A stretch of 64,000 bases of DNA from Bacillota bacterium (lineage in GTDB: Bacteria; Bacillota; Clostridia; Lachnospirales; Lachnospiraceae). Positions 27,825-61,143 of the stretch are shown here, in pieces (position 1 is the stretch's first letter; every line of letters begins with the position of its first letter). The translations under genes were made by a program, and so were the position numbers. Location of the stretch: the NCBI GenBank assembly GCA_023663285.1, contig JAMPHT010000006.1:29149-93148 (forward strand). Direction: 5' to 3'. The notes under the pieces were generated by a model, which was given only the letters and a program-made list of their open reading frames with translations, did no database searches and had not been told where the DNA came from.

Positions 27825-27843
27825 GTGGTAAAGGAGCGTCTGC

Positions 27844-29298: not shown

Positions 29299-29331
29299 AG
29301 GAATAAAATAGAGATAAGGAATAAAATAGAG

Positions 29332-30483
29332 ATGAAGAAGAAAGCTTTCGTATGGTGTCTGGCGGCTGTAGCGGTTGTAGCTGTGACTGTGGTGCTGATC
29401 CTGACCGGGAAAAAAGGGAGTGCAGACAGGGAGATCCCCCCTGCCTCCGAGTGGTATATGACCTATCTGGATAACAGCTACAGCTCCCTGGGAAGGCTGT
29501 ATACCGAGGACGGCTTTCTCTATTTTCAGGACGGGTCCACGGGGGAGGTGCAGATTGTCTGCGACGACGCCGTATGTGCCCACGAGCGTGAGAGCTGCAG
29601 CGCTTATTTCGGCGGCTTTATCACAGAGGGAATCGTAACAGGGGATAAGCTCCTGCTGTTTACGGATCACGGATATGATAAGCTGGGTGAGCTGTACCTG
29701 TATGAGACGGCGCTGAACGGCAGCCAGAGACGGCAGATCGCCAAGCTCAGCGACGATGTCCAGTATGTCATGGGCGCAGCCATGACGGACGAGTATATTG
29801 CCATCGCTTATTTTAATAATATCCCGGATGAAAGCGAAGAACATTCAGGGGAAAGAACAGCGGGCATCCTGCTGTATGACCGCATTCATAACACCAGCCG
29901 GGAGCTTGTTCAGATCACCATGTGGAACGCCAGCGTCATGTATCCCAGGATCATCGGTGATAAAGTATATTATGAATATATGGGATATGATATGGATCGG
30001 GAGGAAGCTATCGCCCACGGAGAGGATCCGGACTATTATCAGGAGCGGTTTCAGCTTGGGCTGGCGGCCTGCAGCATAGACGGGGAAGAGAGCGAGCCGG
30101 AGGAGATAGCTGACGTCGATGATTTTAATCCCCTGACCCTTTACAATGACTGTATCCTGTATACGGCAGAGGGTCAGCTCTACAGTTACAATGTGGAGAC
30201 GAAGGAAAAGGAACTTCTGGGAAAAGGTATGAGGGTACTGCCGGGGGACGGCAGGGGCGGCATCTGTCTTTCGGATTATGATTCCGCCACGCGGCTCTCT
30301 AAGCTGTATCGGTATGACGGAACAATGCAGTATGTGGGGGAATACACCACGGAATGGAGCATTACCGCCGTCTTTGAAAACGTGATCTATGCACTGCATT
30401 ATGACGGAGAGGTCAATTCAGGCATTATGAAGGCGGTGCCGCCGGATACCATTTTGAGTAACAGTTCAGCCATGCAGAAATGA
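29332..30483 (+). CDS. Membrane-anchored propeller-like protein with C-x4-C-x-H-x5-C motif
   Basis: Protein of 383 residues: an N-terminal membrane anchor (about 5-24, no lipobox Cys), then a repetitive all-beta region with YFQDG, YLYETAL, LLYDRIHN, VYYEYMG and LYSYNVET strands, as in DUF5050-like beta-propellers. A cysteine/histidine cluster CDDAVCAHERESC at about 78-90 could bind a metal or form a disulfide. Similar proteins commonly accompany ABC-2 exporters in Lachnospiraceae. It is followed by such a permease. A 17-base tandem duplication (AGGAATAAAATAGAGAT) lies just upstream of its start. Confidence 0.7.
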   Translation: MKKKAFVWCLAAVAVVAVTVVLILTGKKGSADREIPPASEWYMTYLDNSYSSLGRLYTEDGFLYFQDGSTGEVQIVCDDAVCAHERESCSAYFGGFITEGIVTGDKLLLFTDHGYDKLGELYLYETALNGSQRRQIAKLSDDVQYVMGAAMTDEYIAIAYFNNIPDESEEHSGERTAGILLYDRIHNTSRELVQITMWNASVMYPRIIGDKVYYEYMGYDMDREEAIAHGEDPDYYQERFQLGLAACSIDGEESEPEEIADVDDFNPLTLYNDCILYTAEGQLYSYNVETKEKELLGKGMRVLPGDGRGGICLSDYDSATRLSKLYRYDGTMQYVGEYTTEWSITAVFENVIYALHYDGEVNSGIMKAVPPDTILSNSSAMQK

Positions 30484-30562
30484 TTGTGCAAATTACGTTT
30501 GTTTTTTCAGCAGGGCGGCAGACCTGTTTACCGGTATTGACCGGCGGGTCCGGGGGATCGAA

Positions 30563-36255: not shown

Positions 36256-36287
36256 AATATGTGCATGGCGCGGAAAAGGGGAAAACA

Positions 36288-39281
36288 ATGAAGCAAGCTA
36301 AAATTTTGAGAAAATCTACAGCGGCGGTCCTTCTTGCATCTATGGTGCTTACGATGCTGCCTGTTGCGGGCTTAGAGTCCAAGGCAAAAACAGACTGCTC
36401 CATGGATGAATTTGACGAGATGATCAGCACCTACAATGTGGACGACTCCATTCCTTCCTACAAGGAATATAAGGCACTGCATTCGGACGCCGCCTATCCC
36501 GACACCGTGGTGGAGATCCCTGCTTCGGGCTTCGTCAGGTACGAGGAGAGCGACGCGCCTGCCAAGCCGCAGGTCTATTCCGATTATGAGGGGATGGCGG
36601 GAGACAGTGTGCTGACAGGCGAGGACTCCCTGATCGAGTTTGAAGTGAATGTGGCCCAAAGCGGTATGTACAATCTCTCGGTGGTGTATTACCCCACGGA
36701 GGGTAAAAACTCTGATATCCAGCGGAGCCTGTTTGTGGACGGAGCGCTGCCCTTTGAGGAGCTGGCGCTGCTGACCTTCCCCAGAGTGTGGACCAATTAT
36801 GTGGCGGATACAAGGGTAGATAAAAACGGCGTCACTGTCATGAACTGGGAAAAGGACAATCAGGGCAACGATGTGAAGCCTAAGACAATGGAGATACCTG
36901 AGTGGCAGACCAGGTACTTATATGACAGTGACGGCTATATCACCGAGCCCCTTTCAATTTACCTGGAAGCGGGAGAGCATACCGTCAGCATCGTGTCCCT
37001 GCGGGAGCCCATGCTGATAAACAAGCTGATTTTAAGCAACGCCGAAGAGGTGAAAAGCTACGCTCAGGTAAAGGCGCTCTGGGATGCGGCGGGGGCGGCG
37101 GATACCACCGGCGCCCACATCCTTCTGGAGGGAGAATACGCTACCAAGACCTCTTCCCAGATGCTTTATCCTCAGCAGGACCAGTCCTCCCCGGCAGTGT
37201 CGCCCTCCAGCGCCAAGGCGCTTCTGAACAACTCCATCGGCGGTAATTCCTGGAGGCTGGTGGGACAGTGGATCGAGTGGGAGTTTGATATTTTAAAGGA
37301 CGGTTATTATTGTATCTCTTTCTATGACAAACAGAATTTCTCCAGAGGCATTCATGTGTCCCGCCGTATCACCATTGACGGGGAAGTGCCATTCTCGGAG
37401 ATGAACGATTACGCCTTCGATTACAGCCAGAGCTGGCGGGAGGATAAGCTGACGGATGAAAGCGGCGAGCCTTACCGTTTCTATATGGAGGAGGGGCATC
37501 ATGTGCTCCGCATGGAGGTGGTGCTGGGCGAGTTTTCCGAGATCGTAGGTCTGGTGGAAGAGGCGGTACAGCAGTTGAACAGCATTTACCGCCAGGTGAT
37601 CAAGGTCACCGGCGTGGCCCCTGATACTTACCGGAGCTATCAGCTGGAGGCGACCCTGCCGCAGCTGCACGATCAGCTGGTGGAGGCCAGAGCCACCGTG
37701 AATGAAGCCCTGGAAAAGCTGGAGGCAGTGGCAGGAAGCAACACCGATAAAAAGGCGGTGCTTCTGACCATGAGGGACCAGTTGGACGATCTGATCAAGG
37801 ACGGAGAGTACTTTGTCAGGGTCATCGGCACTTACAAGACCAATGTCCGGGCGCTGGGCACCTGGATCACCAACGTGATCAGCCAGCCCCTGCAGATAGA
37901 CCGCATCAATATCTATTCGCCGGATGTGAAGATCAAGTATGACAAGACCGGATTTTTCAGCCAGGCGGGATATGAGATCAGCAGGCTGTATTACTCCTTC
38001 ATCATCGACTACAACAACATCGGCAGTGTGGACGAGAGCAATAAGGACAACACGGCGCTGACTCTGTGGATCGGTTCCGGCCGTGACCAGGCCAATGTCA
38101 TCAAGGCTCTGATAGACGACACCTTCACCAGCCAGACCGGCGTCAGTGTCAATGTGCAGCTGGTGGATATGAATACCCTGTTAAAAGCCACCCTGGTGGG
38201 AGAGGGCCCCGACGTGGCGATCCAGGTGGCAAACACCAACGGCGTGGCCGGAGCGGTGCTGTACACCGGCAACGACACCCCGGTGAACTACGGCATCCGA
38301 AACGCAGTGCTGGATCTGACTCAGTTTGCGGACTGTGAAGAGGTGCTTGCCCGGTTCCCGGATGCGGCAAATACCCAGTTTACCTACGACGGCGCGGTGT
38401 ACGCCCTGCCGGAGACCATCACTTATCCGGTGATGTTCTACAGGAAGGACATCTTAAAGGAGATTGGTCTGGAGGTGCCAGAGACCTGGGATGATGTGAA
38501 GGTGGCAATGACCGTGCTGGCAAAGAACCAGATGGAGTTCGGTATGCTGGCAAACGAGCAGATATTCGCCTCCCTGCTGTACCAGAACGGAGGCAGATAT
38601 TATAACGACGACGGCACCGCATCGGATCTGGATTCGGACATTGCGGTGAATACCTTCAAGGATTTCTGCGAGTACTATACGGATTACAAGCTGGATAAGG
38701 AGACCAGCGTGGAGGAGCGGTTCAGGACAGGCGAGTGTCCCATCATCATATCGGACTACACCACCTACAACAACTTTGCCGTGTCTGCTCCGGATATAGC
38801 GGGCCTGTGGAGCTTCACCCAGATTCCGGGAACAGTGCAGGCGGATGGCGGCGTGGACCATTCTGTGGCGAGTACCGGGCTGGCGAGCATGATCATGGCG
38901 GATACGGACTATCCGGATGCTGCCTGGGAGTTCGTCAAGTGGTGGACCAGCGCGGACACCCAGACCCAGTATGGGCGGGAGATGGAGTCTCTGATGGGCT
39001 CCGCAGCCAGAGTGCCCACCGCAAACTATGAGGCATTCTTAAATATGCCATGGCCTGTGGATGATTTTGAGGCGCTGAAGGAAGCCATGGAGAGCGCAGA
39101 GGGCATCCCTCAGGTGCCTGGCGGATATTATTCCTGGCGTAATGTGTACAACGCCTTTTACGAGGTGGTGACCAACACAGACACCGCCCTTCCCAGAGAG
39201 GAACTGATGGATAAGGTCATCTACATCAACGCGGAAATCGACTACAAGCGCGAAGAACTGGAATTGGACAAGAAGAAATAA
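36288..39281 (+). CDS. Large secreted solute-binding protein with N-terminal jelly-roll modules
   Basis: Protein of 997 residues starting at ATG 36288 (AAAGGGG upstream). The signal peptide ends around ESKA without a lipobox Cys, so it appears secreted or otherwise retained. Two CBM-like jelly rolls occupy about 82-254 (FVRYEESDAPAKPQ, SGMYNLSVVYYP) and 277-420 (ILLEGEYATKT, DGYYCISFYDKQN). A helical linker covers about 430-550, and a CUT1 binding-protein fold fills about 590-985 (LTLWIGSGRDQANV, GEGPDVAIQVANTN, YALPETITYPVMFYRKDI). Two permease genes follow. Typical binding proteins are about 450-550 residues, so the added modules are unusual. Likely ligand: mannan oligosaccharides. Confidence 0.85.
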   Translation: MKQAKILRKSTAAVLLASMVLTMLPVAGLESKAKTDCSMDEFDEMISTYNVDDSIPSYKEYKALHSDAAYPDTVVEIPASGFVRYEESDAPAKPQVYSDYEGMAGDSVLTGEDSLIEFEVNVAQSGMYNLSVVYYPTEGKNSDIQRSLFVDGALPFEELALLTFPRVWTNYVADTRVDKNGVTVMNWEKDNQGNDVKPKTMEIPEWQTRYLYDSDGYITEPLSIYLEAGEHTVSIVSLREPMLINKLILSNAEEVKSYAQVKALWDAAGAADTTGAHILLEGEYATKTSSQMLYPQQDQSSPAVSPSSAKALLNNSIGGNSWRLVGQWIEWEFDILKDGYYCISFYDKQNFSRGIHVSRRITIDGEVPFSEMNDYAFDYSQSWREDKLTDESGEPYRFYMEEGHHVLRMEVVLGEFSEIVGLVEEAVQQLNSIYRQVIKVTGVAPDTYRSYQLEATLPQLHDQLVEARATVNEALEKLEAVAGSNTDKKAVLLTMRDQLDDLIKDGEYFVRVIGTYKTNVRALGTWITNVISQPLQIDRINIYSPDVKIKYDKTGFFSQAGYEISRLYYSFIIDYNNIGSVDESNKDNTALTLWIGSGRDQANVIKALIDDTFTSQTGVSVNVQLVDMNTLLKATLVGEGPDVAIQVANTNGVAGAVLYTGNDTPVNYGIRNAVLDLTQFADCEEVLARFPDAANTQFTYDGAVYALPETITYPVMFYRKDILKEIGLEVPETWDDVKVAMTVLAKNQMEFGMLANEQIFASLLYQNGGRYYNDDGTASDLDSDIAVNTFKDFCEYYTDYKLDKETSVEERFRTGECPIIISDYTTYNNFAVSAPDIAGLWSFTQIPGTVQADGGVDHSVASTGLASMIMADTDYPDAAWEFVKWWTSADTQTQYGREMESLMGSAARVPTANYEAFLNMPWPVDDFEALKEAMESAEGIPQVPGGYYSWRNVYNAFYEVVTNTDTALPREELMDKVIYINAEIDYKREELELDKKK

Positions 39282-47604: not shown

Positions 47605-47658
47605 CGGCTCTTTGCAAAACCCATCAACTTTTAACAACGAAAAAGGAGGATGAAAAAG

Positions 47659-49587
47659 TTGAAGAAAAAATTTTTGGCCTGCCTTCTGGCGGGCGCCATG
47701 GCACTGTCCATGGCAGCGTGCGGCGATGACAGCCAGCAGTCTTCAGACTCTACTCTTACAGAGGACGTGACCACGCCTTCTGAGAGCGAGCCTGAGAGTA
47801 CGCCTGAACCCACACCGGAACCTGTGGCGGAGGACGCAAGCATTGACTTTGAGGATGGGAACATGGGCTTTGTGTCCGTATATTCCCAGCCTGCGGACGC
47901 AGCTGACGTGGAGCTGTCCATAGCGGATTTCGGCGGCAGCAAAGCCCTGCAGGTAAAGAACCTGACAGGCAAGGTGCCCTATGTAGCCATTGACGCAACC
48001 AGCCTGCTGGGGGCGGATGTGGCAAAGGTAGCCAGCATCGAGCTGAATGTGGGGGTGTCCTATGAGGATGGCAGCTTCAATGCCTGCTCCGGTGCGCTGA
48101 TTGCATGGAGCGGCGCGGATTTGACAGAAAGCAGGGATAACTGGTCTGTTTATCTTGAAAAGTCAAATCCTAAAAAACAGACCGCGACCTTGTCCGCAGG
48201 GGAGGAGTTCGTTGCAGACGCAGGCAATATGCTGGTGGTGCAGTTAAAGACTGACAACGGTGTGGACGCAGGCGCGGGCAACGCAACCATGTACATCGAC
48301 GACATCCGTTTTCTGGATGCTTCCGGCAATCTGCTGACGGCAGACAGCTCTGCGACTTTCGTGGCAAACGCTATGTTTGAGAGCAGCGGTCCTGATTATG
48401 TGAATCTGGCATACATTGCGAATCCTGTGAATTTTGACGGCTTTGCCTGCACCGGCGGCGGCTGGGCGCAGAACGGCTTTGAGGTACCACAGACATTCCT
48501 GGATGCGCTGGTGCCCGGCTCTGTCATAGAGATCGAGTACAAGTCTGACTCCGGCAATATGTGGATGCTGATGAACGGGGCTGCGGCGGGCTGGATCCGC
48601 GTAGGCTGCGGACCTATAGACGGTTTGGACGGGGAGCATCCCGAAAAGGATACCTCTGCTTACTACAACAGCGGCAGGACCAAGTGCCAGATCACCTTTG
48701 AGCAGCTGGCGGCGTGGTATACCGATGATGTATCCACATGGGGGACCAGTATGCAGTGCGAGTCTGATTCCGATTGGGAAGTATTCTCCGTGAAGGTAGG
48801 ACAGGCGTCTCCTTACTACGCGCCTCTGGGCAGTGAGGCAGTAGAGTTCTCCGGCTTTGCCTGCAGTGGCGACGGCTGGGCACAGAACGGCTTTGATATG
48901 CCCCAGGAGATTCTGGACGCACTTGTACCCGGTTCTGTGGTAGAGATCAGCTATACTTCTGAGAACGACGATATGTGGCTCGTAATGCCCGGCTGCGCAA
49001 AGGGCTGGAAGAGAGTGGGCCACAATGAAGGCACCGACGAAGGAGAGGGCTATGCGACCTGCGACGGCAGCAAGTGCTATGTTCCTTACGAGATGCTGGA
49101 GGCAGTGTGCGGCGGCGACGTATCCACTTTCGGAACTACCATGCAGTGTGAGGCTTCCGGCGCATGGGAGGTGTATTCTGTAAAGGTGGGTCCTGCTAAG
49201 GAATTCAAGATGATGAGAGACCCTGTAGAGTTCTCCGGCTTTGCCTGCAGCGGCGACGGCTGGGCACAGAACGGCTTCGATATGCCTCAGGAGATCCTGG
49301 ACGCACTTGTACCCGGTTCTGTAGTGGAGATCGCTTATACCTCTGAGAATGACGATATGTGGCTTGTAATGCCCGGCTGTGCAAAGGGTTGGAAGAGAGT
49401 AGGCCACAATGAGGGAACCGATGAAGGAGAGGGCTACGCATCCTGTAACGGAAGCGTCTGCCAGGTGCCTTATGAGATGCTGGAGGCAGTGTGCGGCGGC
49501 GACGTATCCACTTTCGGAACTACCATGCAGTGTGAGGCTTCCGGCGCATGGGAGGTATACAGCGTAAGCGTAGGTATGGCGCAGTAA
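47659..49587 (+). CDS. Lipoprotein with three CBM-like repeats
   Basis: I start at TTG 47659, because GGAGG at 47645-47649 abuts the alternative ATG at 47650 but is correctly spaced for the TTG. About 642 residues: signal peptide with lipobox MAAC, a Ser/Pro/Glu-rich linker, an N-terminal CBM-like beta domain (about 60-220), then three repeats of about 120 residues at about 254-376, 394-512 and 522-640. Each begins with a GFAC and WAQNGF motif and contains LDALVPGSVVEI. Repeats 2 and 3 are near-identical in DNA, offset 384 bases. No enzyme motif is seen; likely a surface glycan-binding protein serving the transporters. Confidence 0.82.
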   Translation: MKKKFLACLLAGAMALSMAACGDDSQQSSDSTLTEDVTTPSESEPESTPEPTPEPVAEDASIDFEDGNMGFVSVYSQPADAADVELSIADFGGSKALQVKNLTGKVPYVAIDATSLLGADVAKVASIELNVGVSYEDGSFNACSGALIAWSGADLTESRDNWSVYLEKSNPKKQTATLSAGEEFVADAGNMLVVQLKTDNGVDAGAGNATMYIDDIRFLDASGNLLTADSSATFVANAMFESSGPDYVNLAYIANPVNFDGFACTGGGWAQNGFEVPQTFLDALVPGSVIEIEYKSDSGNMWMLMNGAAAGWIRVGCGPIDGLDGEHPEKDTSAYYNSGRTKCQITFEQLAAWYTDDVSTWGTSMQCESDSDWEVFSVKVGQASPYYAPLGSEAVEFSGFACSGDGWAQNGFDMPQEILDALVPGSVVEISYTSENDDMWLVMPGCAKGWKRVGHNEGTDEGEGYATCDGSKCYVPYEMLEAVCGGDVSTFGTTMQCEASGAWEVYSVKVGPAKEFKMMRDPVEFSGFACSGDGWAQNGFDMPQEILDALVPGSVVEIAYTSENDDMWLVMPGCAKGWKRVGHNEGTDEGEGYASCNGSVCQVPYEMLEAVCGGDVSTFGTTMQCEASGAWEVYSVSVGMAQ

Positions 49588-49673: not shown

Positions 49674-51278
49674 ATGAAAAATATGAAAAAATTTATGGCA
49701 CTGGGCCTTGCCACAGCCATGACTCTGTCCATGGCAGCCTGTGGAAACGGCGGCAGCGGCGACAGCCAGAGCGGCAGTCAGGGCAATTCCGGCAACCAGG
49801 GGAATCAGGGTGATTCCGGCAATCAGGGCGCTTCCGTGGATACGGACAAGGTTTTTGGCCCCGGCGACGGACACATTGAGATCGGTTCCTGGTGGGTGCA
49901 GTACTATGACAGTGCAAACTATGCCGACGGCGATATGAATGTGAATCCCGACTGGGTATCCGCTCAGGATGCCGAGGGGGATGATGAGGAGACTGCAAAG
50001 CAGAAGGCAATCAACCGGAATGTGGCTCAGTTGAAGTGGGACAATGTAAAGACGATCGAAGAAAAATACGGTGTGAAATTCACCTGGGAGAACCTGACCT
50101 ATGAAGGGACCCAGGATTCCATCAACACCTCCATCATTGCGGGCAGCCCCGACTGTGAAGTGTATCTGGTGGAATCCAGCATGGCGATCCCTGCACAGAT
50201 GAACGGTCTGGCAGTTGACTTAAAGACCATTCTGCCTGCGGATGACGATCTGTTTACCGACCAGTCCAACATGGGATATCTGGATATGGGAGACGGGAAG
50301 GCCTGTGTTCTGTACCAGAAATCCGGACAGAATAACGTAGAAGGTACTTATCCTCTGGGCTTCAATATGCAGCTTCTGGAGGAGAACAACCTGGAAGACC
50401 CCAGAGACCTTTGGGAGAGGGGCGAGTGGACCTGGGATAAGTTCATCGAGTACTGCCAGGTGCTGACCCAGGATACCGACGGCGACGGTCAGGTGGATCA
50501 GTACGGTTACTGCGGCTACGAGCAGGAAACCTTTGAACAGCTGCTGATGTCCAACGGCGCAAGCATTGCTTCCACCACCACGGAGTCACTGTCCTCTGCG
50601 GCTACCGGCGAGGCTCTGCAGATGCTGTACGATATGTATAATACCTACAAGTCCACAGACGGATACAGTATTTGCTATCCCTATGATTTTGATACAACTA
50701 CCAACTCTGATACCATGAGAATTCAGTACTGCCAGGGTAATGTTGGTTTCTTCCCCATTGCGGTATGGATTGCAAACGGACAGAACAACTATTCCCCCAG
50801 CACGGCAGATAATGATTACAGTGCAAAGAACCTGACTTTTGATACCGCTTATGTGCGCTGGCCTGTGGGCTACTCCGGGAACAAGGATACCAACCCCGGC
50901 AAGAACGCCGCATCCGGCACCAGCTATTTCATCATTGCAGCCGGCAGCCAGAATCCCGGCACTGCATATTATGTGCTGTCTGATTTCTTTAACTGGTATC
51001 ATGACGATATCAACGTGCGTGACGACAAGGCTACCCTGAACTGGTGGTACACAGAGAATGCTTATGAGCCGGAGCTGCAGACCGAGAACTACGAAGTTAT
51101 GTTTGACTGCGGATCTCACTCAACCGTTGATTTCTGGAATGCTCTGGGAGTGGATTACAGCACAGATACCATGAATGGTATAGAAGCTCTGATCAGCGGT
51201 ACTATGACACCTGCACAGTTCCAGGAGACATTCAAGCAGAGAGTGCAGGATGCACTGGATTCCACATACGGCAACTAA
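49674..51278 (+). CDS. CUT1 solute-binding lipoprotein
   Basis: Binding protein of 534 residues for the second transporter: signal peptide with lipobox MAAC, a Gly/Ser/Asn/Gln-rich linker (about 25-60), and an LplA-like fold with GHIEIGSWWVQYYD, IIAGSPDCEVYLVES and a C-terminal EALISGTMTPAQFQETF. An EF-hand-like loop DTDGDGQVDQYGY at about 265 probably binds calcium, as in related binding proteins. AAAGGAGG precedes the ATG by 12 bases. Ligand inferred as beta-mannan oligosaccharides. Confidence 0.92.
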   Translation: MKNMKKFMALGLATAMTLSMAACGNGGSGDSQSGSQGNSGNQGNQGDSGNQGASVDTDKVFGPGDGHIEIGSWWVQYYDSANYADGDMNVNPDWVSAQDAEGDDEETAKQKAINRNVAQLKWDNVKTIEEKYGVKFTWENLTYEGTQDSINTSIIAGSPDCEVYLVESSMAIPAQMNGLAVDLKTILPADDDLFTDQSNMGYLDMGDGKACVLYQKSGQNNVEGTYPLGFNMQLLEENNLEDPRDLWERGEWTWDKFIEYCQVLTQDTDGDGQVDQYGYCGYEQETFEQLLMSNGASIASTTTESLSSAATGEALQMLYDMYNTYKSTDGYSICYPYDFDTTTNSDTMRIQYCQGNVGFFPIAVWIANGQNNYSPSTADNDYSAKNLTFDTAYVRWPVGYSGNKDTNPGKNAASGTSYFIIAAGSQNPGTAYYVLSDFFNWYHDDINVRDDKATLNWWYTENAYEPELQTENYEVMFDCGSHSTVDFWNALGVDYSTDTMNGIEALISGTMTPAQFQETFKQRVQDALDSTYGN

Positions 51279-51323: not shown

Positions 51324-52346
51324 ATGAGCAATATAAAGATGATATCCCCTGCGGTGCCCAATGTGCCCTGGCAGGAAAGGCCCGAAGGGCTTAAAGGAGC
51401 GCCGGTCTGGAGATATACGGAGAATCCCATTATCGGCAGGAATCCCCTGGAGGGTGTGGCACGTATCTTCAACAGCGCGGTGATGCCCTATGAGGGAAAG
51501 TTTATCGGCGTGTTCAGGGGAGAGCAGACCAATGGTATTCCCTATATTTATCTGGGGAGAAGCGAGGATGCTATCCACTGGGAGTTCGATAAGGAAAAGA
51601 TCCCTTTTGTGGACGAGGCAGGAAAGCCCTTTATGCCCATTTATGCTTATGATCCCAGGCTGGTAAAGGTGGAGGACACCTATTATATCATCTGGTGTCA
51701 GGACTTTTACGGAGCGTCTATCGGTATGGCAAGGACCACGGATTTCAAGACCTTTACCAGGCTGGAAAATCCTTTCCTTCCCTTTAACCGCAACGCAGTC
51801 CTGTTTCCCAGAAAGATCCACGGCAACTTTATGCTGCTGAGCCGTCCTTCCGATTCCGGCCATACGCCTTTCGGTGATATCTTTATCAGCGAGAGCCCGG
51901 ATCTGGTATACTGGGGGAAGCACAGACACGTAATGAGCCGGGGCAATGAGTGGTGGGAGTCTCTAAAGATTGGCGGGGGCGCTGCTCCTATCGAGACCAA
52001 TGAGGGCTGGCTGCTGTTTTACCACGGCGTCAGCGGAACCTGCAACGGATATGTATACTCCATCGGAGGCGCTATCCTGGATCTGGAGAATCCATCCAGG
52101 GTTCTGTACCGCTGCGAGAACTTCCTGCTGACTCCCGAAGAGTGGTACGAGGAGAGAGGCTTTGTTCCCAATGTTACCTTCCCCTGCGCCACCATTCATG
52201 ATTCCGAGAGCGGGAAGATCGCCATCTACTACGGCTGCGCAGACAGCTATGTGGGCCTGGCATTTACCACGCTGGAGGAGATCGTTGCCTACATCAAAGA
52301 CAATAGCGTGACCAACGACAACGACAGAGAGATCGGAATGAGATAG
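51324..52346 (+). CDS. GH130_2-type beta-1,4-mannooligosaccharide phosphorylase
   Basis: Cytoplasmic phosphorylase of 340 residues that releases mannose-1-phosphate from the non-reducing end of beta-1,4-manno-oligosaccharides. The N-terminus PNVPWQERPEG, FNSAVMPYEGKFIGVFRGEQ and the proton-donor Asp110 in YAYDPRLVK match the short GH130 group like Ruminococcus albus RaMP2. Arg/His phosphate-binding residues lie in SRPSDSGHTPFGD. Five-bladed propeller fold. No Shine-Dalgarno is visible upstream. It works with the epimerase and GH130_1 enzyme downstream. Confidence 0.9.
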   Translation: MSNIKMISPAVPNVPWQERPEGLKGAPVWRYTENPIIGRNPLEGVARIFNSAVMPYEGKFIGVFRGEQTNGIPYIYLGRSEDAIHWEFDKEKIPFVDEAGKPFMPIYAYDPRLVKVEDTYYIIWCQDFYGASIGMARTTDFKTFTRLENPFLPFNRNAVLFPRKIHGNFMLLSRPSDSGHTPFGDIFISESPDLVYWGKHRHVMSRGNEWWESLKIGGGAAPIETNEGWLLFYHGVSGTCNGYVYSIGGAILDLENPSRVLYRCENFLLTPEEWYEERGFVPNVTFPCATIHDSESGKIAIYYGCADSYVGLAFTTLEEIVAYIKDNSVTNDNDREIGMR

Positions 52347-52538: not shown

Positions 52539-53552
52539 ATGTCAGAGGCAATGAATTTCGTGAAAAATATCAAGGTAGGGATCAGCATCGGGAATACGCT
52601 GGACGCCGTAAGCGCTCATCTGTCCAGGGACGCGGCGCCGGAGGCATTTGAGACGGCATGGTTCAATCCTGTCATCACGGAGCAGCTGGTAGATACCATG
52701 CTGAGATCCGGGTTTGACCTGATTCGTTTCCCGGTGTCCTGGACCAATCATCTGGGACCGGAGCCTGATTTTCTCATTGAAAAGAGCTGGATGGACAGGG
52801 TACAGGAGGTAGTGGATCATGCTTATAAGCGGAATGCATATATTATCCTGAATCTGCATCATGAGGACTGGAATTATCCCTATTATGACAACTGCGAGGC
52901 GGCATGCCGGAAGATGAAGGCTGTGTGGAGCCAGATCTGTGAACGGTTTGCGGAATATGACGAGCATCTGATCTTCGAGGCACAGAACGAGCCCCGGAAG
53001 ATTGGTACGAAGTTGGAATGGAACGGCGGAGACAAAGAGGGCTGGGATGTGGTGAACGCCACTAACCGGGCGTTTCTGGAGACGGTAAGGGGCGCGGGGG
53101 GACATAATCCTAAGCGCTATGTGATGCTGCCCGGATACGGCGCAAACTGCACAGTGGGCGTCCGGCATATTGAAGTGCCGGAGGATGAAAGGGTGATGAT
53201 TTCCGTACACGCCTATGAGCCTTATGAGTTCGCGCTGCAGATCCCAGGCAGAAGGAACTGGAACCATGACACCCAGGCCATAGACGCCCTGATGCAGAGC
53301 CTGAAGGAGTTGTATACAGATAAGGGTATCCCCGTTATCATCGGTGAGTTCGGCGCCATGAACAAGGAGGACAACGAGGAGGAGCGGGCGGAGTGGGTCA
53401 GCTACTATGTACACGCCGCGGCTCGAATCGGCGTCCCCTGTGTCTGGTGGGACAACGGGCTGTTTGAGGGCGAGGGGGAGTTGTTTGGGCTTTTCAACAG
53501 GCATGACTGTTCCTGTGTGTATCCGAAGGTGCTGGCTAGTTTGATTTTTTAA
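52539..53552 (+). CDS. Cytoplasmic GH5 glycoside hydrolase
   Basis: Retaining beta-glycanase fold of 337 residues without a signal peptide. It begins KVGISIGNTLDA (GH5 N-terminus), has HHEDWNYP, the acid/base Glu151 in FEAQNEPRK and the nucleophile Glu270 in PVIIGEFGAMN. Typical GH5 cellulases or mannanases are secreted; this one would hydrolyse imported glucomanno- or cello-oligosaccharides. GAGGAG precedes the ATG. The epimerase gene follows after 15 bases. Subfamily and exact linkage not assigned. Confidence 0.88.
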   Translation: MSEAMNFVKNIKVGISIGNTLDAVSAHLSRDAAPEAFETAWFNPVITEQLVDTMLRSGFDLIRFPVSWTNHLGPEPDFLIEKSWMDRVQEVVDHAYKRNAYIILNLHHEDWNYPYYDNCEAACRKMKAVWSQICERFAEYDEHLIFEAQNEPRKIGTKLEWNGGDKEGWDVVNATNRAFLETVRGAGGHNPKRYVMLPGYGANCTVGVRHIEVPEDERVMISVHAYEPYEFALQIPGRRNWNHDTQAIDALMQSLKELYTDKGIPVIIGEFGAMNKEDNEEERAEWVSYYVHAAARIGVPCVWWDNGLFEGEGELFGLFNRHDCSCVYPKVLASLIF

Positions 53553-53567
53553 AGGGGAGAATACAAG

Positions 53568-54833
53568 ATGGCGGAGATAGCAAGAATGGCGGCAGAGGCG
53601 AAGGAACATCTGCTGGGGAAAATCGTTCCTTTCTGGCGTTCCTTAAGGGACGATACCTATGGGGGCTGGTACGGCTATGTGTCCTATGACCTGAATACAG
53701 ACAGGGAGGCGGTGAAGGGGTGCATCCTGAACAGCAGAATCACCTGGTTTTTTTCCAATGTGTACCTCTGCTGTAAGGAGGGGCTGATCACAGCAAAGGA
53801 TTGCCTGCAATATGGGTATTCTCCGGAGGATATCCGGTCAGAAGCTGAGCATGGCTATCAGTTTCTGAAGAAACACTGTCTGGACAGGGAAAATGGAGGC
53901 ATCTACTGGTCCCTGCAGGCGGACGGCACACCGGAGGATGACACAAAGCATACCTACAATCAGGCGTTTTGCATTTACGCCCTTTCCTCTTATTATGAGG
54001 CGCTGGGGGACAGGGGGGCGCTGCAGACCGCTTTTGAATTGTTTGACCTGATCGAGGGAAAATGTACGGATGAGGTGGGGTATCTGGAGGCATTTACCGT
54101 TGATTTTAAGCCGGCCTCCAATGAGAAGCTGTCGGAAAACGGCGTCATGGCGGCAAAGACCATGAACACCCTGCTCCATGTGTTTGAAGCCTATACCCAG
54201 CTTTATAAGGTTTCCGGGAATGAAAGGGTGGGGAAGCGGCTGGAATGGATACTTGATACCTTTGCAGATAAGATCTATGATCCGGAAAAGCATCGGCAGG
54301 AAGTGTTTTTTGATGAAAATTATCATTCTATCATTGATCTGCACTCATACGGACATGATATTGAGACCGCATGGCTCATAGACTTAGGGCTGGATGTTCT
54401 TGGAGACCCGGCGTATGAAAAGAAGCTTGCGCCAATCACGAAGGATCTGACTGCTCAGATCTATAAAACAGCTTTTAACGGCCATTCTCTGGCAAACGAG
54501 TGTGAAAAGGGGACAGTTAATACCCATCGCATCTGGTGGGTGCAGGCGGAGAGTGTGATAGGATTTTTAAACGGTTACCAGAAGGAGGGCAGCCACAGGG
54601 AGTATCTGAAGGCGGCGCTGAACCAGTGGAAATTTATTCTGGAATATGTGGTGGACAGCCGTTCCGGCTCCGAGTGGTTCTGGGAGGTGGACGAAGAGGG
54701 AACGCCCTATCCGGACAGACCCATTGTGGAGCCCTGGAAATGTCCCTACCATAACGGAAGGATGTGCATGGAAATATTGAAGCGGGCGCGGGAGCTGGCA
54801 GAAGGGGACACAGCGCCGGAAGCGGAAGCGTAA
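53568..54833 (+). CDS. Cellobiose 2-epimerase (AGE superfamily)
   Basis: Interconverts the reducing-end glucose and mannose of beta-1,4-disaccharides; in mannan pathways it turns mannobiose into mannosyl-glucose for the GH130_1 enzyme. The 421 residues form an (alpha/alpha)6 barrel with the three characteristic His motifs: His128 in KHTYNQAF, His259/His263 in HSYGHDIE, and His320 in HRIWWVQAE. AAGGGGAG precedes the ATG. The last codons (PEAEA) and stop lie in a short duplicated sequence that continues beyond the gene. Confidence 0.92.
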   Translation: MAEIARMAAEAKEHLLGKIVPFWRSLRDDTYGGWYGYVSYDLNTDREAVKGCILNSRITWFFSNVYLCCKEGLITAKDCLQYGYSPEDIRSEAEHGYQFLKKHCLDRENGGIYWSLQADGTPEDDTKHTYNQAFCIYALSSYYEALGDRGALQTAFELFDLIEGKCTDEVGYLEAFTVDFKPASNEKLSENGVMAAKTMNTLLHVFEAYTQLYKVSGNERVGKRLEWILDTFADKIYDPEKHRQEVFFDENYHSIIDLHSYGHDIETAWLIDLGLDVLGDPAYEKKLAPITKDLTAQIYKTAFNGHSLANECEKGTVNTHRIWWVQAESVIGFLNGYQKEGSHREYLKAALNQWKFILEYVVDSRSGSEWFWEVDEEGTPYPDRPIVEPWKCPYHNGRMCMEILKRARELAEGDTAPEAEA

Positions 54834-55019: not shown

Positions 55020-56195
55020 ATGGTACATGAAAAATATTTTGAGATGGCAAAAGAACAGGAGAAGCTGTTATGCAGGAAAAACGAAAAGGACGCCGCTTTT
55101 TACAATGGCGTCTATGATCGTTATGTTTATCCTGTCCTCACAAGGGAGCACATTCCCCTGACCTGGCAATATGATTTGAATAAGGAGAGCAATCCTTATT
55201 TTTTGGAGCGTCTTGGAGTCAACGCGGTGATGAATTCCGGGGCGATCTATCTGAACGGGAAATATTATCTGGTGGCACGCATTGAGGGAAACGATCGTAA
55301 ATCCTTCTTTGGGGTGGCGGAGAGCGATAACGGCGTGGACGGGTTCCAGTTCTGGGATTACCCGATTCTGTTTGAGGACACCTGCCCGGAGGAGGTCAAT
55401 GTGTACGATATGCGCCTGACACAGCATGAGGACGGCTATATCTACGGTGTTTTCTGCTCTGAGAGCAAGGACAGGTCGGTGAATGATCTGTCTGCGGCTG
55501 TGGCGGCGGCAGGTATTGTGCGCACAAAGGATCTGAAGCAATGGGAGCGTCTGGATAATCTTGTGACCCTGCGCTCTCCCCAGCAGAGAAACGTGGTGCT
55601 GCACCCTGAATTTGTAAATGGCAAATATGCCTTTTATACCAGGCCCATGGATGATTTTATCGAGACGGGAAGCGGCGGCGGTATCGGCTTCGGACTTTGC
55701 GACGATATCACCCATGCGGTGGTGGATGAAGAGAAAATGACGAGCCTCCGCAAATACCACACTATCACCGAGACGAAAAACGGTGCGGGCGCGGTCCCCA
55801 TAAAGACGGACGCAGGATGGATCCATATTGCCCACGGCGTGCGGAACACGGCTGCGGGGTTAAGGTATGTGATCTATGCTTTTGCCACGGCGCTGGATGA
55901 TCCCTCCAGGGTGATCGCGGAGCCTTCCGGCCTGCTGATAGGACCCAGAGGAGGCGAACGGGTGGGGGATGTTTCCAACGTTGTGTTTACCAACGGCGCC
56001 ATTGTCAACGAGAAGGAAGAGGTATTTATTTATTATGCTTCCGCCGACACAAGGCTCCATGTGGCCACGACCACCCTTGACAGGCTTAAAAGTTATGTGT
56101 TCAATACCCCCGCCGATCCCGGCAGGAGCGTGGAATGTGTTGCCCAGAGGTGCGGGCTGATTGAGAAAAATCTGGAGCTTCTGAAGAATGTATAA
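55020..56195 (+). CDS. GH130_1-type 4-O-beta-mannosyl-glucose phosphorylase
   Basis: Phosphorylase of 391 residues converting mannosyl-glucose and phosphate to mannose-1-phosphate and glucose. The long N-terminal helix, [29 protein letters not shown], and proton-donor Asp130 in [13 protein letters not shown] match the GH130_1 group (RaMP1-like), which is about 390 residues. Phosphate-binding Arg/His residues are expected in YTRPMDDF and WIHIAHGVR. Together with the epimerase it recovers the last disaccharide. GGAGATAAAGAAT precedes the ATG. Confidence 0.92.
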
Positions 56196-56317
56196 AACCA
56201 GGGCATTCTTCCTGTAGAATTAGGAAATAGCAACAAGCGCCTGCGGCAGCATACAGCAAAAAGCTTATGCTTATGTTGTCAGAAAGTCGTGGGCTGCGGA
56301 AAGGCATGGTCAATAAT

Positions 56318-57400
56318 ATGTTGGTTTTACCGGATCAGAAAGGTTTGACATACAGCGGGCGGATCGATTTTGAGGACGGACAGGCTCCGGTGTTTGTCTA
56401 TGCAGGCAGCTATGTGAGCATCCGGTTCACCGGAAGCTGCATCGGAGTCATCATTTCCAATCAAAGAAGCTATGGCTCCAATTATGTGGGGTATATTCTG
56501 GACGGGGTACAGGGAAAATTTCTGCTGGACAAAGAAGAACAGGAGGGTGATGCTTCCTCTGGGCAGGCCGGCTGGCGGCAGGGTTACTGCCTGGGCAGGG
56601 ATCTGGCAGCGGGTGAGCATGAGCTGCTTTTGTTCAAGCGCATGGACGCCTGTCATTACTTTACTTTCCACGGATTTGAACTGGAGGACGGAAGCAGGGT
56701 GCTGCCGCCTGCTCCGCTCCCCACGCGGCGTATTGAGGTGTTCGGCGACAGCGTATCCTGCGGGGAAGTGTCGGAGGCGGTGGAGTATGTGGGAAAAGAA
56801 GATCCTGAGCACGACGGTGAATTTTCCAACAGCTGGTATTCTTATTCCTGGATGACGGCAAGAAGGCTGAATGCGGAGCTGCACATCACTGCCCAGGGCG
56901 GGGCGGCGCTGCTGGATGGGACAGGCTGGTTCTGCGGGCCTGATTTTGTGGGGATGGAGTCCATCTATGACAGGATACAGTATAATCCTCAGCTTGGAGC
57001 AACGAAAAAATGGGATTTCAGCAGATGGATCCCCCATGTGGTGGTACTGGCCATCGGGCAGAATGATGCAAATCCGGAGAATTACATGGCGGAGGACTAT
57101 GGGTCCGAAAAGGCGGTAAACTGGCGCAGACGTTACAGGGCTTTCGTTGAAAAGCTGATGGAGCTTTACCCCAAGGCGTATTTTGTGCTGACCACCACCA
57201 TTCTGGGGCATGATGCGGCCTGGGACCGGGCCATTGAGGAGGTCTGCAGAGAGCTTGACAGCCCTAAGGTGCAGCATTTTCTGTATGAAAAAAACGGCTG
57301 CGGCACACCGGGGCACATCCGCATTCCGGAGGCGGAAAAGATGGCGGAGGAGTTAAGTGCTTTTATTGATTCTCTTGGGGAACATATTTGGAAAGTGTGA
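56318..57400 (+). CDS. CE2-type acetylesterase (SGNH)
   Basis: Cytoplasmic esterase of about 360 residues from ATG 56318 (MLVLPDQKGLTYSGR); the frame is open from 56267 and GGAAAGG at 56298-56304 is closer to ATG 56306, so the start is uncertain. An N-terminal beta sandwich (about 5-115) precedes the SGNH domain with IEVFGDSVSCGE (Ser), AQGGAALL, VVVLAIGQNDANP and CGTPGHIRIPEAEKMAEE (His). This order is the CE2 arrangement. Roseburia CE2 removes 3-O-, 4-O- and 6-O-acetyl groups from mannooligosaccharides, and the same role is likely here alongside the next gene. Confidence 0.88.
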   Translation: MLVLPDQKGLTYSGRIDFEDGQAPVFVYAGSYVSIRFTGSCIGVIISNQRSYGSNYVGYILDGVQGKFLLDKEEQEGDASSGQAGWRQGYCLGRDLAAGEHELLLFKRMDACHYFTFHGFELEDGSRVLPPAPLPTRRIEVFGDSVSCGEVSEAVEYVGKEDPEHDGEFSNSWYSYSWMTARRLNAELHITAQGGAALLDGTGWFCGPDFVGMESIYDRIQYNPQLGATKKWDFSRWIPHVVVLAIGQNDANPENYMAEDYGSEKAVNWRRRYRAFVEKLMELYPKAYFVLTTTILGHDAAWDRAIEEVCRELDSPKVQHFLYEKNGCGTPGHIRIPEAEKMAEELSAFIDSLGEHIWKV

Positions 57401-57421: not shown

Positions 57422-58543
57422 ATGATAAGCTTGAATTATGAGGCTGCGGTGGCAAACCGCGGAGATCAGGGGAGAATAAAAAGTGTATTTGAGCGGGCAA
57501 AGCAGGGAGAAAAGCTGACGTTGGGATTCTTAGGAGGTTCTATTACCCAGGGATCTCTTGCAACAGACCCGAAATTCTGCTATGCTTACCGTGTATATGA
57601 GTGGTGGTGCAGGACCTTTCCCAATGCGGAGTTTGTGTACCTGAATGCCGGAATAGGGGCGACGGACTCCCAGTTTGGCTGTGCAAGGGTTGACAGCGAC
57701 CTGCTGGCGTACAGGCCGGACTTCGTCATTGTGGAATTTTCGGTGAATGACAGCGCAACTCCTCACTACCTGGAAACCTATGAAGGGCTGGTGCGCAAGA
57801 TCTACGGCGCGGAGTGGCAGCCTGCGGTGCTGCTGGTACATAATGTGTGCTATGACAACGGCGGCAATGCTCAGTTGATGCATGGCAGGGTCGCCCGGTA
57901 TTATGAACTTCCTGCTGTCAGTATGCAGAGCTGTATTTATCCGGAGTTGGTTTCCGGAAGGCTGGAAAATCGGACTATTACATCGGATGATCTGCACCCT
58001 AACGATTACGGCCATGAACTGGTGGCGTCTGTTATCACTTATTTTCTGGAGAAAATTCTGGGAGATGAGAGCCTGGCGGATAAGTGTCTGACAGATGAGA
58101 AGCTGACAGATGAGAGCCTGACGGCAAACGCTTATGAGAATTCCGTCCGGTACAGGAATGACAATGCCTCGCCTGTTTTACAGGGCTTTACGCCGGATCC
58201 TGCGCCGCAGGAAGTAATCACCGATATTTTCAAAAAGGGTTGGACGGCATCCGAAAAAGGGGCGTCCATCGTGTTTGAGGTGGAGGGCAGCTGTATCGGA
58301 GTCCAGTACAGAAAGACCATTCAGCTTCCTGCGCCGGTGGCGGAGCTGGTCCTGGATGGCGACGAGGCTCACCCTTTTGTGCTGGACGCTAATTTTGACG
58401 AGACCTGGGGAGACAAGCTGGTGCTGGATACCGTGCTGGAGCACGGAGAGGATAAGCTGCACAGGGTTGAGATCCGTTTGAGTAAGACCCATGAGGATGA
58501 TAAGCTTCCTTTTTATCTGGTGTCTGTCATTGCAAGTAGCTAA
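57422..58543 (+). CDS. Cytoplasmic SGNH esterase, CE17-like
   Basis: Esterase of 373 residues with SGNH blocks LGFLGGSITQGS (Ser), LNAGIGATDSQFG, VEFSVNDSATP and DDLHPNDYGHEL (Asp/His), followed from about residue 230 by a C-terminal beta domain after a short repetitive linker (DESLADKCLTDEKLTDES). The arrangement resembles CE17 2-O-acetylmannan esterases that work together with CE2. No signal peptide, unlike its paralogue at 24552. A GAAGGAG site lies 7-8 bases before the ATG, inside the 17-mer motif also seen at 12368 and 21120. Confidence 0.87.
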   Translation: MISLNYEAAVANRGDQGRIKSVFERAKQGEKLTLGFLGGSITQGSLATDPKFCYAYRVYEWWCRTFPNAEFVYLNAGIGATDSQFGCARVDSDLLAYRPDFVIVEFSVNDSATPHYLETYEGLVRKIYGAEWQPAVLLVHNVCYDNGGNAQLMHGRVARYYELPAVSMQSCIYPELVSGRLENRTITSDDLHPNDYGHELVASVITYFLEKILGDESLADKCLTDEKLTDESLTANAYENSVRYRNDNASPVLQGFTPDPAPQEVITDIFKKGWTASEKGASIVFEVEGSCIGVQYRKTIQLPAPVAELVLDGDEAHPFVLDANFDETWGDKLVLDTVLEHGEDKLHRVEIRLSKTHEDDKLPFYLVSVIASS

Positions 58544-58734: not shown

Positions 58735-61038
58735 ATGTTTGACAGGGATTTTGTCTGGGGCGTGGCGAGCAGCGCGTACCAGGTGGAGGGGACTGACCCG
58801 GAGGACGGGAGAGGGAAAAATATATGGGATACCTTTGTGGAGGCAGGCAGGATATTTGAGGGGCAGAACGCCAATACCTCCTGCGACCACATACACCGGT
58901 ACAGGGAGGATTATGCCCTGATGCGGAATCTGGGCATACGGGCATACCGTTTTTCCATGAATTGGGCCAGACTGATCCCGGACGGAGATGGGGCGGTCAA
59001 CGGGAAAGCGGTGGAGCTGTACAGAAACATGATTCTTTCCATGAAGGAAAACGGCATCAGACCTTATGTGACGCTGTTTCACTGGGAATTTCCCCAGGCC
59101 CTGCAGGATAAGGGCGGCTGGCTGAATCCGGATGTGGTGGAGTGGTTCGGCAATTACGCCAGGGTCGTGGCGGAGAATTTTTCGGATATCTGTCAGGATT
59201 TTATTACCATCAACGAGCCCCAGTGCGCCGTGGGGCTGGGGCATTTAAGCGGCGTTCATGCGCCGGGACTTAAGCTTTCCTACAGGGAGACCTTCCAGAT
59301 TGCCCACAATCTGCTGAAAGCTCACGGGAAAGCTGTTATCATGCTGCGCAAATATGCAAAGCAGCCCATCCGGATAGGGTATGCGCCCACAGGAGGCGTG
59401 GCGTATCCATACACCGATTCCCCGGAGGATATCGAGGCGGCAAAGAAGGTGTATTTCGGCTTTTACAATCCTATGAGCAACTGGACCTGGAATGTGGCCT
59501 GGTTCTCCGATCCCGTATTTCTGGGGCATTATCCGGAGGAAGGGCTGAAGCAGTTTCAGGAATATCTGCCGGAGATCACCCTTAAGGATATGGAGCTTAT
59601 CCACCAGCCTCTGGATTTCATGGGGCAGAATATATACAACGGATACTATATCAGGGCAGGCCAGGACGGAGAGCCTGAGTTTGTCACCAGGGAGCCGGGA
59701 TTCCCAAAGACCGGAACGGATTGGCCGGTGACGCCGAGAGCCTTTTATTACGGTATTAAGTTTCTGACAGAGCGTTATCCGCTGCCTCTGTATATTACGG
59801 AAAACGGTATGGGCTGCCATGACAACGTATCTCCCGACGGCAGGGTACATGACAATGACAGAATCACTTTTCTGGACAGCTATATTGGCGCGATGCAGAA
59901 GGCCATGGAAGAGGGCGCGGATGTGAGGGGCTATTTCCTTTGGACCTTTCTGGACAACTTCGAGTGGAGCGACGGCTATAAGCAGCGCTTCGGTATTGTG
60001 TATGTGAATTATCAGACCCAGAAGAGAATCGTGAAGGATTCCGCTTTCTGGTACAAGGAGGTAATAGAAACTATGGGTGCAAATCTTTCCTGTAACAATC
60101 CCTGTCAGGATATTCTGTTCCTGAATCCTGTGTTTACCCACAATATATGGGGCGGAAGCAGGCTGCGTGAGGACTTTGGGTATCCTGTGGAGGGAACGGA
60201 CATAGGCGAGTGCTGGGGTATCTCCGCCCACCCAAACGGGGAGGGGACCATACGGGACGGCGCTTATGCCGGTGTGAAGCTCTCAGAGCTTTGGAAAGCC
60301 CATCCTGAGATGTTCGGAAATGTGGCGTCTGATCGGTTCCCGCTGCTGGTGAAGATCATTGATGCGAAAGATGACTTAAGCATTCAGGTACATCCGGATG
60401 ATGCTTATGCAAAGGTCCATGAGAACGGTTCGCTGGGCAAGACGGAGTGCTGGTATGTGCTGGACTGCCCTCCGGATGCGGCACTCGTCATCGGTCATAA
60501 CGCCGGGACAAGGGAGGAGCTTGCAGATATGATCCATCAGGGGCGCTGGAAGGAGTTTATCCGGGAGATCCCGGTGAAGAAGGGAGATTTCATTCAGATC
60601 GATCCCGGCACCGTCCATGCCATCAAGGGCGGGCTGCTGATACTGGAAACCCAGCAGAACAGCGATATTACTTATCGCGTTTATGATTATGACAGGCTGT
60701 CAAACGGAAAACCCAGGCAGCTTCATGTAGAGCAGAGTATAGATGTTATCACTGTTCCGGCAAAATCTGCGGAGGACAGTGTAATGTCTGCGGCTGATTT
60801 GCCTGAAAACCATATGAATGAGTTGTATCGGTGCAGCTATTACCGGGTGTCAAAACTGCAGGTAAACGACAGCTTTGTCTTTGAGCCGGATGCCCCTTTC
60901 CTACTGGCGACGGTATTGTCAGGTGACGGTATTGTCAACAGCCAGCCGGTGAAGAAAGGAGACTTTTTCCTGGTTCCCAATGGGGTGAAAAGGCTTGAAT
61001 TTACAGGGAAAATGGAGCTGATCCTGTCTAATGTTTAG
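58735..61038 (+). CDS. Fusion of GH1 beta-glycosidase and class I mannose-6-phosphate isomerase
   Basis: One uninterrupted 767-residue frame. Residues about 1-446 are a complete GH1 enzyme: FVWGVASSAYQVEG, acid/base Glu161 in TINEPQ, nucleophile Glu356 in YITENG and FLWTFLDNFEWSDGY. From about residue 459 a type I phosphomannose isomerase begins (LNPVFTHNIWGGSRL), with zinc ligands at His553 in QVHPDD, Glu571 in KTECWY and His628 in PGTVHAIKGG, running to the C-terminus. GH1 would remove terminal beta-glucosyl or mannosyl units; the isomerase converts mannose-6-phosphate to fructose-6-phosphate. Each half is normal length. The ribosome site is weak. I know of no described example of this fusion. 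Confidence 0.93.
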   Translation: MFDRDFVWGVASSAYQVEGTDPEDGRGKNIWDTFVEAGRIFEGQNANTSCDHIHRYREDYALMRNLGIRAYRFSMNWARLIPDGDGAVNGKAVELYRNMILSMKENGIRPYVTLFHWEFPQALQDKGGWLNPDVVEWFGNYARVVAENFSDICQDFITINEPQCAVGLGHLSGVHAPGLKLSYRETFQIAHNLLKAHGKAVIMLRKYAKQPIRIGYAPTGGVAYPYTDSPEDIEAAKKVYFGFYNPMSNWTWNVAWFSDPVFLGHYPEEGLKQFQEYLPEITLKDMELIHQPLDFMGQNIYNGYYIRAGQDGEPEFVTREPGFPKTGTDWPVTPRAFYYGIKFLTERYPLPLYITENGMGCHDNVSPDGRVHDNDRITFLDSYIGAMQKAMEEGADVRGYFLWTFLDNFEWSDGYKQRFGIVYVNYQTQKRIVKDSAFWYKEVIETMGANLSCNNPCQDILFLNPVFTHNIWGGSRLREDFGYPVEGTDIGECWGISAHPNGEGTIRDGAYAGVKLSELWKAHPEMFGNVASDRFPLLVKIIDAKDDLSIQVHPDDAYAKVHENGSLGKTECWYVLDCPPDAALVIGHNAGTREELADMIHQGRWKEFIREIPVKKGDFIQIDPGTVHAIKGGLLILETQQNSDITYRVYDYDRLSNGKPRQLHVEQSIDVITVPAKSAEDSVMSAADLPENHMNELYRCSYYRVSKLQVNDSFVFEPDAPFLLATVLSGDGIVNSQPVKKGDFFLVPNGVKRLEFTGKMELILSNV

Positions 61039-61094: not shown

Positions 61095-61143
61095 GCCTCT
61101 CTGTCTGAACCACAGAGAGGCGGTGTCCATTAGGACATTTTTT
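61095..61143 (+). terminator. Double hairpin terminator after the mannan locus
   Basis: GCCTCTCTGT (61095-61104) pairs with ACAGAGAGGC (61112-61121). Immediately after, TGTCC-ATTA-GGACA is followed by TTTTTT at 61138-61143, a compact intrinsic terminator. The T-run overlaps the first bases of the left direct repeat. Confidence 0.8.

Follow-up and report, generated by a model that had tools for sequence, protein, structure and literature searches.

What might a bacterium gain from making a glycosidase and a sugar-phosphate isomerase as one polypeptide? The question is raised by the gene at 58735-61038 (+) of the window, that is, of the whole stretch of 64,000 nucleotides analysed here, in which a glycoside hydrolase family 1 (GH1) domain is followed by a class I mannose-6-phosphate isomerase (ManA). 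We favour, with a probability of about 0.78, the reading that the last gene of a beta-mannan run encodes a single bifunctional protein, composed of a GH1 exo-beta-glycosidase and the isomerase, and that the benefit of the join is co-expression. This reading draws on the frame, the domains, their conservation, the synteny and the low dN/dS of both halves in our analysis, and on the isomerase activity of the Roseburia intestinalis counterpart, as reported in the part of that publication available to us.

The gene is a single open frame from ATG to TAG with 767 codons (767 aa). Pfam places Glyco_hydro_1 (PF00232) at residues 2-447 with 464.7 bits, PMI_typeI_cat at 462-561 and MPI_cupin_dom at 698-766, and each half exceeds the curated cut-off of an NCBIfam model, namely TIGR03356 for GH1 beta-glucosidases (494.9 vs 478.5 bits) and TIGR00218 for manA (195.6 vs 116.2 bits). 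Both halves are full length when aligned to solved structures, residues 2-451 matching 3-452 of the GH1 structure 9l0q and residues 460-766 matching 8-318 of the 319-residue 1qwr (E 4e-90). The GH1 domain, of the beta-glucosidase type by PF00232, TIGR03356 and 9l0q, thus occupies residues 1-451 (58735-60087, +), the linker residues 452-459 (60088-60111, +) and the isomerase domain, assigned by TIGR00218 and 1qwr, residues 460-767 with the stop codon (60112-61038, +). We take Glu161 in the motif TINEP (59215-59217, +) to be the GH1 acid/base and Glu356 in ITENG (59800-59802, +) to be the nucleophile, while His553, Glu571 and His628 are presumably the zinc ligands of the isomerase. Whole domain and active-site residues are shared with GH1 beta-glucosidases of the TIGR03356 type such as Ks5A7 (PDB 9l0q), which, however, stand alone; 1qwr likewise is a stand-alone enzyme and differs in having Lys at the position of Gln551 of the fusion. 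A 6-phospho-beta-glycosidase was considered for the GH1 half and rejected, as the fusion scores below the cut-offs of all six NCBIfam 6-phospho models (323.8/610, 280.1/561.2, 185.9/624, 179.8/623, 154.4/639 and 153/686 bits).

That the window lies within a draft genome of 90 contigs might suggest an assembly artefact, or else a recent loss of the stop codon between two genes, but we give these explanations next to no chance. An artefact is ruled out by the full-length copies, isolates included, at 96 of the 110 loci (the first 110 taken), which represent 90 distinct proteins; the first-pass annotation had proposed a search of other genomes for the two-domain architecture, and this is what the search returned. 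Since "full-length" was defined as one unbroken match from residue 30 or earlier to residue 740 or later, an open junction is partly built into the figure of 96/110; the other 14 loci match one half only. Every full-length copy was then followed in translation up to the first stop codon, and the junction was displayed for all 90 distinct proteins; six of the 96 copies are duplicates, probably because the same genome was encountered twice. The isolates among them are R. hominis An869 (L045), R. faecis M72 (L064), three Pseudobutyrivibrio (L049, L050, L054) and Petralouisia muris (L096). A scan of contigs yielded 156 loci encoding a relative, of which 80 were kept; in each of these the match begins at residue 1 or 2 of the query and extends to residue 761 or further.

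Full-length matches were present in 16 of 101 genomes of the same genus (the genome of the window counted), in 12 of 299 genomes of the same family (E up to 1e-150), with a probable thirteenth spread over two contigs (G106), and in 4 of 391 genomes of the class (E up to 1e-200), all four from the family of the window. The record titles name Lachnospiraceae or one of its genera for 70 of the 80 named loci, the remaining ten being vaguer or different, including metagenome-assembled genomes called Ruminococcus (L056), Bacillus (L105) and Clostridium (L110). The fusion seems to be characteristic of some of the Lachnospiraceae.

Conservation extends to the catalytic residues of both halves. Among the 90 distinct fusions, Glu161 is Glu in all 90 and Glu356 in 89, nine further GH1 active-site residues that were checked are invariant, and so are His553, Glu571 and His628 of the isomerase (90/90), which are also present in 1qwr. 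The expectation in the first-pass annotation of two complete enzymes with intact motifs in one frame was therefore borne out by Pfam, NCBIfam, both structures and the residue conservation. The linker has 8 residues in 79 of the 90 fusions and 9-11 in the other 11, so that the length of the junction varies by at most 3 residues. Between six close copies, dN/dS was 0.044-0.060 for GH1 (8 of 15 pairs valued) and 0.034-0.061 for the isomerase (12 of 15), saturated pairs giving no value (7 and 3 of 15, respectively) and dS exceeding 1 in many pairs. By these sequence comparisons, both halves look to be kept by selection. The sole fusion with Lys at the nucleophile position (L098, ITKNG) carries either a sequence error or a dead GH1.

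The genes upstream place the fusion in a beta-mannan locus. All on the forward strand, they encode an ABC sugar-binding protein (49674-51278; PF01547); a GH130 of the manno-oligosaccharide phosphorylase type (51324-52346; PF04041, with TM1225 1vkd and then 5ayd as best solved matches), presumably of a GH130_2-like subfamily; a GH5 family glycoside hydrolase (52539-53552; PF00150); a cellobiose 2-epimerase homologue, by context a mannobiose epimerase (53568-54833; PF07221, 3vw5); a GH130 of the 4-O-beta-mannosyl-glucose phosphorylase type (55020-56195; best solved match 5ay9), which we assume to be GH130_1-like; a CE2 acetyl esterase (56267-57400; PF17996); and an SGNH esterase (57422-58543; PF13472, matching the "GDSL-like protein" 6hfz with E 2.7e-159), which we take to be CE17-like. 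Genes for GH26-CBM35 and GH36 lie farther upstream of this run. A terminator-like hairpin directly follows the fusion gene (61122-61139, +), as judged by a pattern scan that found 6 such sites across the region against 3.6 (sd 1.9) in shuffled sequences. Among the 58 named loci whose upstream sequence covers a full 8 kb, 55 have a CE17-like gene, 35 a GH130 and 56 at least one of CE17, CE2, GH130 and epimerase; one synteny query, labelled "DUF4185?", starts like a LacI-type regulator and was left out of these results. Elsewhere in the window, a 645-aa protein with three CBM65_1 stretches adjoins the mannan locus (47650-49587), and a 1006-aa protein (36261-39281) has a sugar-binding-protein domain at about residues 613-905, preceded by some 600 residues that match no Pfam or NCBIfam model. 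Four successive long frames at 26379-32641 (481, 484, 383 and 692 aa) have no Pfam match at E 0.001.

In the genome of the window, which is 86% complete, we found no GH1 and no class I ManA besides the fusion, and elsewhere in it two genes of the PGM/PMM type and five GH3 matches. More broadly, 23 of 27 carrier genomes, comprising that of the window and 26 others, have no class I ManA over the cut-off apart from the fusion, a figure that gaps in the assemblies, type II isomerases or a more thorough search could alter; the four carriers with a second ManA over the cut-off are G039, G198, G175 and G156. The 26 other carriers of this census came from the genus and family samples, carriers from the contig scan and the class sample being left out, and eight non-carriers were included; its family search also gives matches in 9 of 14 control genomes. 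That most carriers examined show no isomerase besides that of the fusion is as compatible with a housekeeping function as with one in mannan use.

The 2019 Nat Commun study of R. intestinalis, which we presume to be that of La Rosa and others, bears directly on this protein. In the part of its text available to us (PMC6385246), the counterpart RiGH1 (ROSINTL182_05469/70) of the mannan locus MULL of R. intestinalis L1-82 is called a "predicted bi-functional protein"; it has 768 residues and, like the 767-aa protein of the window, belongs to a beta-mannan locus. The same text reports that the GH1 gene of the locus is expressed more on beta-mannan, that the construct RiGH1_D2 interconverts mannose 6-phosphate and fructose 6-phosphate, and that RiGH1_D1, which ends at residue 246, was inactive on the tested substrates, including G4, M4, M5, M6P, G6P and F6P. 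A second counterpart, RhGH1-M6P, is named as a prediction in the locus RhMosUL of R. hominis A2-183 (PMC9784577, Microorganisms 2022, available in part), and RhMosUL is described there as holding two GH130, an epimerase and two esterases, like the mannan locus of the window. The window shows the features of both, namely an N-terminal GH1 and a C-terminal class I ManA in one frame, within a locus that has two GH130, an epimerase, CE2 and a second esterase, and the copy of R. hominis An869 is 72% identical to its fusion. The first-pass annotation knew of no description of such a fusion and had set down beforehand that an already catalogued architecture would speak against it; as far as the accessible text of the 2019 and 2022 papers goes, the architecture is on record as RiGH1 and RhGH1-M6P. 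The fusion itself is already known, and the claim of discovery falls. A 2016 paper (PMC5320581) lists GH1 in the gluco- and galactomannan locus of R. intestinalis, and a 2026 paper (PMC13278490) does not mention the isomerase, each in the part accessible to us. Our literature search, which left most subscription journals outside its scope and had partial texts to go by, recognised no assay of the whole GH1 domain of a GH1-isomerase protein.

The published domain border at residue 246 differs from that of the window, at about residue 452, and very probably falls in the middle of GH1, an argument that rests on homologues of nearly the length of RiGH1 rather than on the R. intestinalis L1-82 sequence. 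With the cut inside GH1, D1 would very probably lack the nucleophile (E356 in the window); D1 would be half a barrel, and D2 the other half together with the isomerase. The methods of PMC6385246, in the accessible text, mention that the 3' end of 05470 contained ambiguities, which were corrected prior to the cloning of D2, which suggests that the published split arose from two draft gene models. If D1 lacks the nucleophile, its inactivity would be uninformative and would leave the activity of GH1 open.

This bears on the view that the GH1 half is catalytically dead, or a mere scaffold or stabiliser for the isomerase, which we consider improbable. It could appeal to the reported inactivity of RiGH1_D1 (PMC6385246, seen in part) and to the single fusion in 90 (L098) with Lys at the nucleophile position. 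However, by the numbering of the window, a D1 of residues 1-246 would be without Asn299, Tyr301, Glu356, Trp403, Glu410 and Trp411, each of which is conserved in at least 89 of the 90 fusions, the dN/dS values of GH1 and of the isomerase are about equally low, and one relative (L117) keeps the whole GH1 with most of the isomerase half gone. The reported inactivity of D1 also weighs against the reading that we favour, as does the removal of glucose by two GH3 beta-glucosidases in R. intestinalis, as stated in the available text of PMC6385246, by which GH1 may be redundant; the genome of the window has five GH3 matches. A channelling of sugar from GH1 to the isomerase, or an allosteric coupling of the halves, seems quite improbable to us: the short, near-fixed linker (8 residues in 79/90) could hold the domains in a fixed relative position, but a kinase, or a phosphorylase and a mutase, must act between the two enzymes, and in relatives the isomerase is replaced by a CE2 esterase, or GH1 by one of the CE17-like type.

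For the bifunctional protein that we favour, we infer the activity and substrate of the GH1 half, the cellular location and the benefit of fusion as follows. The protein is probably cytoplasmic, because GH1 begins at residue 2 and leaves no space for a signal peptide. The GH1 half would most likely be an exo-beta-glycosidase, acting chiefly as a beta-glucosidase and removing non-reducing glucose, and perhaps mannose, from imported gluco-manno-oligosaccharides, and this trimming would let the two GH130 phosphorylases and the epimerase proceed. Mannose 6-phosphate could then derive from the GH130 product mannose 1-phosphate via a mutase, or from mannose via a kinase, and would be converted to fructose 6-phosphate by the class I phosphomannose isomerase half. 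The first-pass annotation had seen in the fusion a link between the two ends of the encoded pathway. The beta-mannan locus, with products that feed mannose phosphate, stands. The pathway does not begin with GH1, however, since endo-enzymes, import, esterases and GH130 work ahead of it or alongside it. Nor are the two fused steps consecutive, since GH1 frees sugars and the isomerase uses mannose 6-phosphate. Given that the two reactions share no intermediate, the benefit would most likely be a fixed 1:1 co-expression rather than channelling, and the partner swaps in relatives also point to co-expression as the main benefit.

A co-expressed fusion might still be accompanied, in the window and its nearest relatives, by free isomerase, translated from an internal start within the gene. 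The candidate site consists of the Shine-Dalgarno-like AAGGAGG (60055-60061) and an in-frame ATG (60073-60075), together spanning 60055-60075 (+), and two products, the full-length fusion and free isomerase, are in our estimate unlikely, if worth keeping in mind. The upstream site has 7 Shine-Dalgarno matches, as compared with 3 before the GH1 start; ATG and site are found in the window, L002, L003 and L031 (7 matches each) and in L005 (5), while R. hominis L045 (6) and R. faecis L064 (8) each carry a separate site at a different codon. At least 5 matches precede 34 of 119 junction ATGs, as against 144 of 1653 other in-frame ATGs and 21.0 junction ATGs expected under synonymous resampling; counted by sequence, this is 29 of 90 against 19.5 expected, although the sequences are related and such counts therefore non-independent. 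At 6 matches or more, however, the junction is only at the codon-based expectation (8 seen, 7.5 expected), much of its signal arising from the codons for WYKEV, and the Met at 60073 is not conserved. In the GH1 body, sites with at least 6 matches are rarer than expected (4 vs 17.9), which is not so at the junction; with at least 5 matches, 85 were seen in this control and 96.6 expected.

The relatives also indicate how the fusion may have come about. L117 (G067) has a whole GH1 and a separate ManA elsewhere, most of the isomerase being absent from the frame; in L114 (G141), GH1 stops shortly after the start of the linker and ManA lies elsewhere in the genome; and L018 and L019 retain a linker-like tail after NGASL, the census finding no class I ManA in the genome of L019 (G078), where GH1 is kept. 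Another 24 unfused GH1 tails were seen, 20 of which extend no further than the NGxxL position, one being a residue longer and three longer still. A free-looking ManA sits among mannan genes in L118, L127, L192, L193 and L194, the last a short contig, with no GH1 within the stretch fetched. The join is not essential, given that one half is missing, or the halves are separate, in several relatives. Others have exchanged a partner: GH1 continues in frame into a CE2 esterase in an 806-aa protein of G387 (L113:4211-6631), which has its ManA elsewhere, and in an 81% identical protein of G781 (L184) in the same kind of mannan locus, and in G003 a CE17-like SGNH esterase and a class I ManA share one 682-aa frame (L174:1292-3337 (-), the same as L188 3697-5724), with GH1 absent within the stretch fetched.

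A single clade of ManA-fused GH1 was rejected (p-AU 2e-10) in a GH1 tree of 41 rows, hand-picked from 127, in which the GH1-CE2 protein and L017, with an isomerase remnant, counted as unfused. In this tree, unfused rows nest within fused ones and 7 changes are needed; in quick trees, 124 isomerase rows need 10 changes and 127 GH1 rows need 8, but these have many weak forks and flagged long branches and disagree with each other in places. The trees leave out half-matches with an internal stop or with less than 75% coverage of the half, and change counts alone cannot separate gain from loss. Given the nested unfused rows, a linker of almost constant length and what is left of the isomerase in L117, the simplest story, which we favour on these comparisons, would be one old fusion with several later losses, though repeated gain or gene replacement may also account for the pattern. 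We further see a slightly better than even chance for the joint proposition that the Lachnospiraceae mannan loci hold a set of exchangeable fusions, in which the neighbouring genes for CE17, GH1, isomerase and CE2 fuse, separate and exchange partners and joins often fall at the same GH1 end (GH1-ManA, GH1-CE2, CE17-ManA), and that the GH1 is active on glucomanno-oligosaccharides.

Class I ManA is found in other company as well. It is fused to a ROK-family kinase domain in proteins of 632 and 634 aa (L175:321-2216 (-) and L176:370-2271 (-)), where the phosphorylation and the isomerisation of a sugar could share one chain, and it follows a nucleotidyl transferase and a MannoseP_isomer cupin in single frames of 782 aa (L177:999-3344 (-)) and 730 aa (L178:86-2275, a stretch starting inside the gene).

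For annotators, the consequence is that in 23 of the 27 carriers the sole class I phosphomannose isomerase found is part of a gene with the appearance of a glycosidase gene. The losses and swaps, with the GH1-CE2 and CE17-isomerase proteins, form a natural series for probing the use of fusions between operon neighbours. Finally, where no clear function has been assigned to the GH1 part in print, the basis, in the accessible text, is a fragment whose end very probably falls within the GH1 barrel, and an assay with a correctly bounded construct would decide what role this conserved mannan enzyme of gut bacteria has.
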